40,101 bases of DNA from Chloroflexota bacterium (GTDB lineage: Bacteria; Chloroflexota; Anaerolineae; Anaerolineales; Villigracilaceae). The position numbers and the translations under genes were made by a program. Below, in pieces: positions 21,545 through 25,588 of the stretch (positions within the stretch are counted from its first letter, which is position 1; each line of letters starts with the position of its first letter). The stretch is taken from assembly GCA_019873655.1 (NCBI GenBank), contig JAIOAU010000024.1, positions 1 to 40,101 of the forward strand, written 5' to 3'. The notes below the pieces were generated by a model. That model was not told the origin of the DNA. It ran no database searches and saw nothing but the letters and a program-made list of their open reading frames with translations.

Positions 21545-22312
21545 TCAGTCTTCCGCCGCCGGCCCACAGACTTCGCAGCGGGGGTTCTTCCGCAGCGTCA
21601 CATACTCAAAAGAAGCGTTCAAGGCGTCATAAACCAGCAGCCGCCCCGTCAGCGGCGAGCCAATTCCCAGCAGCAATTTGAGAGTCTCGCTGGCCTGAAT
21701 CGTCCCAATCGTGCCGGGCAGCGCGCTTGCCACCCCCGCCTCCGCCGGATCGAGCACAGCCCTCGGCGGAGGCGGAGCGGGATGCACACACTGGTAGCAC
21801 GGCCCGCGGCGGGCATCGAAAACGCTCACCCGCCCTTCGAAGCGGATGACCGCCCCGTAAACGAACGGTTTGCCGGCGCGCACACACGCCGCGTTGACCA
21901 GGCTGCGGGTCGGGAGATTGTCGCTCCCGTCCACGATGACCTGGTAAGGGGCGACGAGGGCGGCGGCGTTGGCGGCCGTCAGCCGTTCTTCATAGACATC
22001 CACGCGGACGCCAGGGTTGAGGTCGAGCAGACGCCGGCGGGCCGCCTCCACCTTGGGCTGGCCCAGCGCTCCGCCGCCGTAAAGTATCTGACGCTGAAGG
22101 TTGGAGAGCGTGACCACGTCGCCGTCCACCAGACCGAGCCTCCCGACGCCGGCCGCCGCCAGGTACAGCGCCGCCGCCGATCCCAGCCCGCCCGCCCCCA
22201 CGATCAGAACGGCCGACTCCTTGAGCCGCCGCTGCCCTTCGACGCCGATCTCAGGGATGACCAGATGACGAGCATAACGCTCCAACTCTTCCGAAGAAAG
22301 GCTGGCAGACAT
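21545..22312 (-). CDS. ThiF/MoeB/HesA-family E1-like adenylyltransferase
   Basis: E1-like enzymes adenylate the C-terminus of a ubiquitin-like sulfur carrier (ThiS, MoaD or CysO type). The 255-residue protein starts with RYARHLVIPEIGVEGQRRL, then the nucleotide-binding GAGGLGSA, the metal/ATP-site DGDVVTLSNLQRQ and a DGSDN segment. Two CxxC pairs (CYQC, CEVC) form the structural zinc site. The Cys usually found before AEAGV in many members is replaced (DPAEAGV). It lies 33 nt behind cysE but has its own leaderless-type -10 element. Its carrier protein is not in the window; a role in cysteine or cofactor sulfur transfer is inferred from the neighbours. Confidence 0.88.
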   Translation of the reverse strand: MSASLSSEELERYARHLVIPEIGVEGQRRLKESAVLIVGAGGLGSAAALYLAAAGVGRLGLVDGDVVTLSNLQRQILYGGGALGQPKVEAARRRLLDLNPGVRVDVYEERLTAANAAALVAPYQVIVDGSDNLPTRSLVNAACVRAGKPFVYGAVIRFEGRVSVFDARRGPCYQCVHPAPPPPRAVLDPAEAGVASALPGTIGTIQASETLKLLLGIGSPLTGRLLVYDALNASFEYVTLRKNPRCEVCGPAAED

Positions 22313-22345: not shown

Positions 22346-23107
22346 CTAAATCGAAAAATCCTGCCCATCCCAGATATCCGCCCGCGGCGGGTGGATGTGC
22401 GCCTGCCCGGCGGCGTGTCCGTCCAGGCGGGACTCGAGCGCCTCGACGCGCGAAAGCAACTGCCTGAGCGTGACGCCGACCACATCGGGCAGGGACGTAT
22501 GATTCAGGTCCGGGGCGTCGCTCGGACGGTGCGGCTGGGCGCGTCGGACGATTTGTCCCGGCACGCCGACGACGACCGAGTTGGGCGGCACCGACTTGAC
22601 GACGACGGCGTTGGCCCCGATGCGGCTGTCATTGCCGATGGTGATGGCGCCCAGCACCTTGGCCCCCGCGCCGATCACCACCCGGTCGCCGATGGTCGGA
22701 TGACGTTTGCCCTTCTCGAGGCTGGTGCCGCCGAGCGTGACGCCGTGGTACATCGTCACATCGGCGCCGATCTCGGCCGTCTCGCCGATGACCACGCCCA
22801 TGCCGTGGTCGATGAAAAAGCCGGGGCCGATTTGCGCGCCGGGGTGAATTTCGATGCCGGTCAGGCCGCGCGTCACCTGCGAGAGCCAACGGGCCAGGAG
22901 TTTGAAGCCGCGCCTCCACAGCCAATGGGCAATCCGGTGCATCCAGACGGCGTGCAGGCCAGAGTACACCAGGAACACCTCCAGCCGCGAACGGGCCGCC
23001 GGATCGCGTTCGAGGACAGAATCGAGGTCGCGCCGAAGCGCAGAGAACAGACCGGGGCGGCGTCGCCGCTGCTCGGTCAGAGAGGAAGCGATCAAATCAA
23101 TGTCCAT
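22346..23107 (-). CDS. cysE: Serine O-acetyltransferase
   Basis: CysE makes O-acetylserine from serine and acetyl-CoA, the first step of cysteine synthesis. The 253-residue protein has an N-terminal helical domain with HRIAHWLW and a left-handed beta-helix of hexapeptide repeats containing [16 protein letters not shown] and [10 protein letters not shown] with the catalytic His residues. The end carries a ~40-residue extension with a [10 protein letters not shown] tail; a terminal Ile like this is what cysteine synthase binds in the CysE-CysK complex, so complex formation is plausible. It starts 12 nt after cysK and should share its attenuated transcript. Confidence 0.94.
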
Positions 23108-23119
23108 AAGAGGCCTCCG

Positions 23120-24055
<936 letters not shown>

Positions 24056-24072
24056 GTCATCACCTTTGGCCT

Positions 24073-24172
24073 AAAAATAAACGGCCAGCAGACAAACGAA
24101 AAGACGGCGCGCTGCGCCTGCGAACGGATTGCTGCTCGCGGGGACTCGCGGCCGTCTCTCGGACTGCTGGCC
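24073..24172 (-). terminator. Attenuator terminator hairpin in the cysK leader
   Basis: On the minus strand GGCCAGCAG (plus 24172 down to 24164) pairs perfectly with CTGCTGGCC (24091 to 24083), and inside it AGACGGC (24157-24151) pairs with GCCGTCT (24108-24102). The outer stem is followed at once by a U-rich tract (GTTTATTTTT, 24082-24073). It is unusually long and branched, about 90 nt, for an intrinsic terminator. Confidence 0.6.
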
Positions 24173-24210
24173 TGACTCTACAGAGAGGCGGCGGCTACGA
24201 GCCCCGCCTC
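24151..24210 (-). promoter_or_regulatory. Alternative pairing segments of the cysteine attenuator
   Basis: Segment 1 GAGGCGG (24210-24204) lies in leader codons 7-9 and pairs with CCGCCTC (24191-24185). Segment 2 GCCGCCTCTC (24192-24183) can instead pair with segment 3 GAGAGACGGC (24160-24151), with one mismatch in 10, forming an antiterminator. Segment 3 includes the 5' arm of the inner terminator stem, so the folds exclude each other. The leader stop codon lies between segments 1 and 2, as in trp-type attenuators. Confidence 0.6.
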
Positions 24211-24230
24211 AGACACATGCATGCGTACAT
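24195..24230 (-). CDS. Cysteine leader peptide of the cysK-cysE operon
   Basis: A short open frame begins with ATG (24230-24228) after GAGGG with 8-nt spacing and reads MYACMCLRRGS then TAG. Two of its eleven codons are Cys (UGC at codon 4, UGU at codon 6), a rare density for such a common-codon-poor amino acid. The next regulatory stem begins 3 nt after the second Cys codon, and the stop codon lies just before the segment that would be covered by a terminating ribosome. This fits a leader peptide that senses charged Cys-tRNA and sets cysK transcription. It shows no other recognisable function. Confidence 0.65.
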   Translation of the reverse strand: MYACMCLRRGS

Positions 24231-24267
24231 AACCGATGCCCTCGAATATTGTTCAAATTCTTGATAG

Positions 24268-24296
24268 ATATTATCCGAATTGCGCCATCTTGTCAA
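24268..24296 (-). promoter_or_regulatory. Promoter of the cysK leader
   Basis: On the minus strand TTGACA (plus 24291-24296) and TAATAT (24268-24273) are 17 nt apart. A start near 24261 gives a leader of about 205 nt to cysK and 30 nt to the leader-peptide ATG. Confidence 0.75.
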
Positions 24297-24340
24297 GAGC
24301 AGGTCTGAGGTACAGACATGAGTTCGGACAACAGCCCGTA

Positions 24341-24420: not shown

Positions 24421-25044
24421 TTAAGGTATGTAGGTGTTGGAGATGGTAAAACTGCTTGCTGCGCCGGTATAGGACACCACCTGAATGTAATACCGTCCAC
24501 TCGGATTATAGATGACCACGCGTTCGGGCGTTGTGCCGCCGGCGCGCGAGTACCACTCGCCGAAGCCGCTGGGCGACATTAACTCGTCATAGGAGCGGGA
24601 AACGTAGATGTCCAGGTCGGCGGTGAAATTCGTCAGGTTGATTTCCAGGCGCGATCCGCTCGGCGGCACCCACAGGCAGTACATGACAATCACGTCATAG
24701 AAACTGCTGCCCGCATTGACGCGTCCAGACAGGCTCTGATTCATCCCCAGCCGCTGCGTGCCCGAATGACAATCGCCCGCCGCGAAGGTGGGAGTGATGG
24801 TCGGCGTGGGCGTACGCGTAGGCGTCAGCGTAGCCGTGGGGGTGGGGGTACGAGTAGGAGTCGGTGTATTGGTGGGAGTCGGGGTTGCCGTGGGAGTGGC
24901 GGTATAGAACAGATTCCCAATCGCAGGCACCCGGTCGCGCAGCAAGAGGCCGCCAGCAGCAACGACGACGCAACAGCAACAAGCGGCGGCGGCGACGGCC
25001 AAAATGATCCAGGGCCATCGACCAGACCGTTTCGTGCTTTCCAT
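24421..25044 (-). CDS. Membrane-anchored protein with Thr-Pro linker and a PPC-like domain
   Basis: The 207-residue protein has an N-terminal membrane anchor containing four consecutive Cys (about residues 22-25), a long Thr-Pro linker (about 50-88) and a ~110-residue C-terminal beta domain starting GDCHSGTQRLGMNQ. That domain has MYCLWVP, LDIYVSRSYDELMSP and GRYYIQVVSY, and is clearly paralogous to the next gene upstream. It resembles pre-peptidase C-terminal (PPC-type) beta sandwiches, without an attached peptidase. AAGGAG precedes the ATG and a terminator follows. The surface role is unknown. Confidence 0.75.
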   Translation of the reverse strand: MESTKRSGRWPWIILAVAAAACCCCVVVAAGGLLLRDRVPAIGNLFYTATPTATPTPTNTPTPTRTPTPTATLTPTRTPTPTITPTFAAGDCHSGTQRLGMNQSLSGRVNAGSSFYDVIVMYCLWVPPSGSRLEINLTNFTADLDIYVSRSYDELMSPSGFGEWYSRAGGTTPERVVIYNPSGRYYIQVVSYTGAASSFTISNTYIP

Positions 25045-25087: not shown

Positions 25088-25588
25088 TTACGGCGTGAAC
25101 TGATTCCAGATGGTGAAGCTGCCTGACGTATTGAATTCATAGGCTACTATCTGAATGTAATAGCGCCCGCCAGGGTTGGGGATGGTGACCTGCTCCGGTT
25201 CGCCGGGCCCGCCATCGCGGTCATAGTACTGGCCCATACCGGTCGGCGACATCAGTTCCTCATAGGAAGAGGACACATAGATATCGAAATCAATATTGAA
25301 GTCCCGGATGCCAATGACCAATTGCGAGCCTCCCTCTGGCACCCACAGGCAGTACATGGCGATGGTCTCGAGAAACTCATCGCCGCCGGCAATGTAACCG
25401 GTCAGGCTGCTGTTCATCGGCAGCGGCGTCGTGTTGGGATTGCAGTCTCCGCCAACGAAGACTGTCGGCTGAGGGGGAGATGTCGGCTGAGCCGGGGGAA
25501 CGACCTCCACCGGCACCTGACATTGACAGGCCAGCAGCAAGGCGAAGACGACCAACACAGTGATCCAGACGATTCTCTTCTTTTGCAT
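25088..25588 (-). CDS. Lipoprotein with a PPC-like domain, paralogue of the neighbouring gene
   Basis: The 166-residue protein has a lipobox Leu-Leu-Ala-Cys (Cys21), a short Pro/Thr/Gln linker and a C-terminal domain starting GDCNPNTTPLPMN. The domain aligns along its whole length with that of the next gene (MYCLWVP, FDIYVSSSYEELMSP, GRYYIQIVAY). The two proteins differ in anchor and linker length, so the domain is a shared module. AAGGAG lies before the ATG. The upstream promoter predicts a two-gene transcript. Function unknown. Confidence 0.75.
   Translation of the reverse strand: MQKKRIVWITVLVVFALLLACQCQVPVEVVPPAQPTSPPQPTVFVGGDCNPNTTPLPMNSSLTGYIAGGDEFLETIAMYCLWVPEGGSQLVIGIRDFNIDFDIYVSSSYEELMSPTGMGQYYDRDGGPGEPEQVTIPNPGGRYYIQIVAYEFNTSGSFTIWNQFTP

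Follow-up and report, generated by a model that had tools for sequence, protein, structure and literature searches.

A candidate cysteine-codon transcription attenuator before cysK-cysE and related leaders in Anaerolineae

The cysK-cysE genes on the minus strand of a Villigracilaceae contig (JAIOAU010000024.1 of assembly GCA_019873655.1; the whole 40,101-nt stretch analysed is called the window) are preceded by a leader that is probably a ribosome-mediated transcription attenuator sensing charged Cys-tRNA and controlling both genes, a reading to which we assign a probability of about 0.9. Three mutually exclusive helices in this leader, i.e. P1 (segments 1:2), an antiterminator and a terminator, covary among related leaders. 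Nearly all matches examined precede sulfur genes (cysK, cysE, rhodanese, TusA/DsrE2, a sulfur transporter or metY-metA). The finding is real, and the comparisons support its reading as a ribosome-mediated attenuator of a new family, the scaffold of which would be common to a sulfur regulon and re-coded for Met.

Leader anatomy and alternative helices

Features of the leader are listed in Table 1. The TTGACA-17-TAATAT promoter proposed in the first-pass annotation was found, with both boxes and the 17-nt spacer in place, and TTGAC-N17..19-TANNNT occurs within 110 nt 5' of the Cys codons in 86 of 99 leaders versus 0.8% after mononucleotide shuffling. Judging by the -10 box, transcription likely starts near 24261, which would give a leader of 189 nt (to 24073) and not the ~205 nt given earlier. 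The peptide MYACMCLRRGS, its GAGGG site and Cys codons 4 and 6 are all present as annotated. The last U-tract is 17 nt from the cysK start.

Table 1. Coordinates of the leader elements and of the genes that follow them in the window
Feature	Coordinates	Strand	Basis
-35 box TTGACA	24291..24296	-	window sequence; promoter pattern in relatives
-10 box TAATAT, 17-nt spacer to -35	24268..24273	-	window sequence; pattern in relatives
Shine-Dalgarno GAGGG of leader ORF, 8 nt 5' of ATG 24230	24239..24243	-	window sequence
Leader ORF MYACMCLRRGS and stop (24197-24195)	24195..24230	-	window sequence; similar ORFs in relatives
First regulatory Cys codon TGC (codon 4)	24219..24221	-	TGC..TGT pattern in relatives
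Second regulatory Cys codon TGT (codon 6)	24213..24215	-	TGC..TGT pattern in relatives
P1 5' arm (segment 1), GAGGCGG	24204..24210	-	P1 covariation, swap test
P1 3' arm CCGCCTC, inside segment 2	24185..24191	-	P1 covariation, swap test
Strand A (segment 1, loop with stop codon, segment 2); antiterminator 5' strand	24179..24212	-	
Strand B (terminator 5' half and antiterminator 3' strand; contains segment 3, 24160-24151)	24131..24168	-	duplex, covariation
Conserved CCCCGC, complement of GCGGGG 24207-24202	24138..24143	-	A4 pairing, some two-sided changes
Inner terminator stem, 5' arm	24151..24156	-	covariation
Inner terminator stem, 3' arm, then U-tract 24102-24094	24103..24108	-	covariation
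Outer terminator stem, 5' arm GGCCAGCAG	24164..24172	-	9/9 pairs changed on both sides
Outer terminator stem, 3' arm CTGCTGGCC	24083..24091	-	covariation
Terminal U-rich tract	24073..24081	-	window sequence
cysK, cysteine synthase A	23120..24055	-	TIGR01139 above cut-off
cysE, serine O-acetyltransferase	22346..23107	-	TIGR01172 above cut-off

Segments 1 and 2 pair perfectly over the two P1 arms, as had been described. The segment 2:3 pairing described with them (24192-24183 with 24160-24151) was confirmed with one mismatch, and the antiterminator is longer than this pairing: segment 2:3 forms the core of a helix in which segment 1 pairs as well, and the extension missed earlier joins 24207-24199 with 24147-24138. 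The terminator stem to which segment 3 had been assigned is also present, in the form of one long rod with two U-tracts.

Covariation was examined in an alignment of 68 leaders (A4). P1 showed 25 cells with double changes, as compared with 9.6 in shuffles, the antiterminator 36 as compared with 17.1, and the terminator 79 as compared with 26.7; none of 500 shuffles reached the observed value for any of these helices. Over the 12 pairs of the antiterminator, 88.9% of cells are paired, against at most 57% when the strands are slid. The GCGGGG:CCCCGC part is paired in 97.8% of cells, and its departures are compensated, with GCGAGG:CCTCGC in L275, L287 and L295, CAGGGACG:CGTCCCTG in L273 and GCGGGAATAG:CTATTCTCGC in L300. 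When pairs with any two-sided change were counted on A4, P1 (reached by 90 of 500 shuffles) and the terminator (173 of 500) did not stand out. In the alignment of 25 leaders, P1 and the terminator jointly gave 17 such pairs, a number reached in 0 of 500 shuffles, and all nine pairs of the outer terminator stem were changed on both sides. Swap tests on 99 leaders agreed, with z of -20.3 for the antiterminator, -13.1 for P1 and -17.9 for the terminator; neither shuffles nor swaps keep phylogeny or shared ancestry, and these and the covariation figures are not probabilities. Covariation in relatives, which had been put forward as a check of the annotated attenuator, is thus found for all three alternative helices.

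Elsewhere in the window, a ThiF-family gene (21545-22312) lies directly 3' of cysK-cysE, possibly in the same operon and with a role in sulfur-carrier chemistry. On the minus strand, the inverted repeat ACTTGTAGGACAAC..GTTGTCCTACAAGTTTT (24383-24344) is a likely terminator of the upstream gene 24421-25044, the product of which resembles that of 25088-25588, each having a hydrophobic N-terminus and a similar C-terminal stretch.

Distribution, downstream genes and regulatory codons

A covariance model with 22 pairs (R1) was built from 25 cysK leaders, which had been picked for their Cys codons; these codons are part of the model. Homologues of cysK, paralogues included, were found in all 61 related genomes, and 80 named cysK loci were taken for comparison. 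Of the relatives' loci, 26 include upstream DNA, and R1 matched 22 of these on the sense strand; L020, L023, L024 and L025 gave no match, and L020 and L024 still show Cys-rich ORFs. A further 26 loci carry Chloroflexota or Anaerolineae in their titles, and 16 of them matched, as compared with none of 54 cysK loci of other phyla (mostly Proteobacteria and Actinomycetota). In the genome of origin only the window copy is strong (E 1e-32), followed by its antisense (0.016) and another match (0.17). R1 was further searched for in 201 genomes of the order, of which 118 gave a match at E≤0.01 (good-quality genomes, 73 of 109; genera, 60 of 84). At class level 298 genomes were screened at E≤0.001; 47 matched, 30 of these lying beyond the order. 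A phylum draw of 301 genomes gave 22 with a match, all within the class. The filters used on such large sets miss weak matches, and these counts do not show absence elsewhere.

Two of the 145 order-level R1 rows were false, one being the antisense of a real element (G116:C67) and the other a plain terminator (G219:C365). The pattern TGYNNNTGYNNNNNGCGGGG gave six matches in the genome of origin, the same number as its backward control, and only the window match was strong by the covariance model. Pattern searches in relatives and for Met codons returned many chance matches beside real ones, and a Met-pattern match in G041 was not leader-like. With a codon-free model (R2), six of 15 matches inspected were real, G208:C12 being already a partial R1 match; the other nine (E about 0.003–0.03) were chance-like or ordinary hairpins.

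Flanking DNA covered all 145 order-level rows and 29 of the 30 class-level matches (G437 left out); for one order-level row (L215) the contig end was reached before any gene. In one set of 145 elements from the loci scanned, 125 have a cysK homologue in the downstream DNA available, and the rest have rhodanese, cysE, metY-type or Sulf_transp genes or lie on cut contigs. Merging with the class-level and R2 matches gave 180 elements, 172 of them unique. By pattern, 156 of the unique elements are Cys-x-Cys (CxC), eight Met-x-Met (MxM) and eight other. On inspection by eye, seven of the eight others proved to be CxC and one (L340) has a single Cys; among the loci inspected, only this cysK leader, which reads Cys-x-Tyr, departed from Cys or Met as the codons of the scaffold. 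The 156 CxC elements precede cysK (124), DUF4395-thioredoxin-cysK (9), cysE (4), rhodanese (13), Sulf_transp (1) and, outside the order, metY-type genes (5).

The last 30 order-level rows, 28 of them with CxC, include 24 cysK leaders, three leaders of TusA-DsrE2 operons and one metY leader, the others being followed by a peptide-type transporter gene or representing a plain terminator. The three sulfur-carrier operons of TusA and DsrE2 are those at L363, L369 and L375, one of which has a Sulf_transp gene; the Pfam identity of the TusA, DsrE2 and transporter proteins was taken from one or two loci only. At L382, a Cys-x-Cys leader on the scaffold stands before a gene for a peptide-type ABC transporter binding protein (SBP_bac_5), and the transporter is perhaps one for a cysteine-containing peptide.

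A short Cys-x-Cys ORF lies upstream of many Anaerolineae cysK genes, and Cys-x-Cys is present in nearly all related leaders examined, as the annotated attenuator had led one to expect. The encoded peptides include MMSMCMCLRRGS, MYACLCLRRGS, MLTCVCLRRG and, in Levilinea saccharolytica, MLTCMCLGRDL. Three antisense rows of alignment A3 and two leaders lacking CxC were dropped before counting. Among the 101 leaders aligned, Cys-x-Cys shares a frame with a start codon in 97; the other four are Met-type, and two of these show CxC letters too, but in a closed frame. An in-frame start was accordingly found for 97 of 99 Cys-x-Cys leaders, both exceptions being Met-type. When read in frame, 93 of 99 leaders have a stop within 34 nt of the second Cys codon, as compared with 45 and 32 for the two other frames, and in 76 of 99 it lies exactly 15 nt (five codons) past that codon; the stop letters are also part of an RNA loop, and this conservation may partly reflect the RNA. 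A few relatives (L365, L366 and L380) have three Cys in a row. Although a single tRNA should read both Cys codons, TGC comes first and TGT second in 88 of 99 leaders, with fixed wobble bases.

Within the order, all nine metY leaders found have Met codons in place of Cys-x-Cys. Eight unique leaders read Met-x-Met (L187, L189, L197, L199, L209, L339, L341 and L345), and the ninth (L378) reads M-M-M and has its start codon beyond the DNA examined. In all eight Met-type loci checked downstream metA follows metY, the ninth (L197) being at a contig end, and NCBIfam confirmed the identity of both genes for one such metY-metA pair. No Met-x-Met leader before any gene other than metY was found among the 172 unique elements scored. 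Met for Cys before metY-metA in the order is a natural codon swap.

Outside the order, metY-metA leaders of one family keep Cys codons (4 of 4 checked), and codon and pathway therefore do not match everywhere. The outside-order metY-metA operon is 69–80% identical to that of G226. The Cys-type metY genes from outside the order are 77–80% identical to metY of G226 and thus nearer to it than the other Met-type ones (72–75%); swaps may therefore have gone in either direction, and once or several times. A fifth case outside the order that was scored as metY is only distantly related (35%), and the gene after it is cysK-like. It is fairly probable that the element is a portable, codon-programmable attenuator, i.e. 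one scaffold spread over Anaerolineae sulfur operons as a Cys-read regulon and re-coded to Met at orthologous metY-metA, the sensed amino acid being changed by a two-codon swap and the switch itself unchanged.

An arrest peptide, in which the nascent Cys-x-Cys-Leu-Arg-Arg-Gly and not the supply of tRNA at the codons would stall the ribosome, could account for CTGAGGCGGGG (L-R-R-G) often coming after Cys-x-Cys and for Leu as the next residue in 51 of 99 leaders. However, the L-R-R-G stretch has two pairing partners and is thereby fixed at the RNA level too, the codon that separates the two Cys is variable (M 32, L 20, S 16, I 14, T 9 and others), and in most Met-type variants segment 1 is read in a different frame and yields other residues. 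This explanation is considered very unlikely.

Folding of the window RNA and proposed mechanism

None of 200 shuffles folded as well as the stretch 24285-24060 (z -3.5). The duplex energy of strands A and B in the window was reached by 43 of 500 dinucleotide shuffles and is not unusual for its composition; therefore the window alone is not proof of the antiterminator, which is supported by the comparison with relatives. When the prefix through strand A was folded, P1 formed except with a ribosome on the Cys6 codon or the stop codon. The prefix through CCCCGC gave 18 A:B pairs both without a ribosome and when Cys4 occupied the A site, 10 when Cys6 did so, and 0.4 for the stop codon at that site. 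A mask laid from the second Cys codon onward removed some A:B pairs, as compared with the free RNA, in 86 of 99 leaders, and with the same mask at least six A:B pairs were kept in the duplex in 96 of 99.

The prefix folds agree with a switch set by ribosome position. In the full-length window RNA, the equilibrium favours the terminator wherever the ribosome is placed, and the switch would therefore have to be kinetic; the outcome is decided in time in other attenuators as well. Since A:B forms at equilibrium also in ribosome-free RNA, repression would need translation or fast folding of P1.

The following course of events is proposed. With ample Cys-tRNA, the ribosome would clear both Cys codons and arrive at the stop codon, which sits midway in strand A. 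It would cover this strand while at the stop, and after its departure strand A would fold on itself as P1. Strand B would then be free to form the terminator rod, and transcription would end before cysK. When Cys-tRNA is scarce, the ribosome would pause at a Cys codon, its leading edge just reaching strand A or covering the beginning of it, and strand A (at least segment 2) could pair with strand B once B is transcribed. The terminator would then not form in time, and cysK-cysE would be transcribed. The earlier suggestion of a trp-type logic applied to cysteine is supported by the Cys codons of relatives, the covariation, the sulfur context and the Met swap.

The long conserved structure with exclusive terminator and antiterminator, and formation of A:B without a ribosome, would also suit a metabolite-binding riboswitch (for cysteine, O-acetylserine or sulfide) with its expression platform, the short ORF being incidental. 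The conserved in-frame start and stop, the conserved Cys codons around a varying codon and the replacement of Cys by Met before metY-metA in the order argue against such a riboswitch, as does the absence of an Rfam match at the gathering score, and we regard it as highly improbable. T-box, SAM and other Rfam riboswitch families gave no gathering-score match in the window or in 20 related loci, and these known identities were set aside; up to E 10, only two microRNA families and NsiR9, upstream of the leader, were matched around it. A constitutive terminator with a non-functional ORF, conserved by common descent of the cysK promoter region, agrees with the terminator being the most stable structure, but is hardly credible given that the element precedes unrelated genes of the same metabolism and that P1 and the antiterminator covary as well.

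Comparison with described attenuators

Attenuators of the trp type (trp, his, leu, thr and ilv) have a leader ORF with regulatory codons, segments pairing as 1:2, 2:3 and 3:4, and an intrinsic terminator ahead of the first gene. The window element likewise has an ORF with start, stop and regulatory codons, exclusive 1:2, 2:3 and 3:4 helices and, between this ORF and the first gene, an intrinsic terminator recognised by sequence and covariation; its codons match the pathway, the four Cys-coded metY-metA leaders outside the order being the exception within the family. Unlike the trp type, it uses Cys (or Met) codons, both strands of P1 take part in the antiterminator, and one scaffold serves many sulfur operons, in Anaerolineae.

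Polycysteine leaderless ORFs of mycobacteria were reportedly described by Canestrari in 2020. The window leader does not belong with them, as its ORF has a 5' leader with GAGGG and its Cys-x-Cys is not a run. Cys leaders before cys genes, with Cys runs near the stop, are described for Mycobacterium, P. acnes and B. longum, and the available sections of that article state that conserved terminator hairpins were not found (PMC1262725). These actinobacterial leaders are similar to the present ones in having Cys-codon ORFs before cys genes, whereas the window type has an intrinsic terminator and a covarying antiterminator.

In uORFC-8-2, found before cysS of Rhodobacterales, a short ORF has two Cys codons and is followed by a U-run terminator, and attenuation by Cys-tRNA was predicted (PMC8632094). 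According to the available part of the description, the tandem Cys are usually at positions 14–15, the element is exclusive to cysS, and two stems are prominent; Cys-x-Cys and GCGGGG:CCCCGC do not figure in that part (PMC8632094). The window leader, with Cys-x-Cys before cysK in Anaerolineae, falls outside this group. A Met-dependent leader peptide of 29 residues (metL) was proposed before metNIQ of Streptomyces lividans, for which the available sections report a typical intrinsic terminator as missing (PMC8079986). In contrast to this actinobacterial case, the metY leaders of Anaerolineae belong to a terminator-bearing scaffold.

In the accessible portion of one survey, the usable Rfam attenuators were those for His, Leu, Thr and Trp (PMC3766115). 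Attenuators with Cys codons had been called little described in the first-pass annotation, a view not upheld by the mycobacterial and Rhodobacterales reports. No Cys attenuator of Chloroflexi or Anaerolineae was found in the literature searched on attenuators, leader peptides, uORFs and cysteine.

If the proposed mechanism is true, a large bacterial class with mostly uncultured members would have in this element one of its main controls of cysteine, and a single attenuator scaffold would, unusually, make up a regulon across many operons. The Cys-to-Met swap is in effect an experiment made by nature and suggests that the identity of the codons by itself determines which amino acid is sensed, and the scaffold could offer a testable part for synthetic amino-acid sensors. 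It may also mark sulfur genes, e.g. the DUF4395 protein and the TusA/DsrE2 operons. At L005, L150 and other loci, a DUF4395 membrane protein and a thioredoxin-like protein are encoded between the leader and cysK, a placement that suggests a role of DUF4395 in sulfur metabolism.
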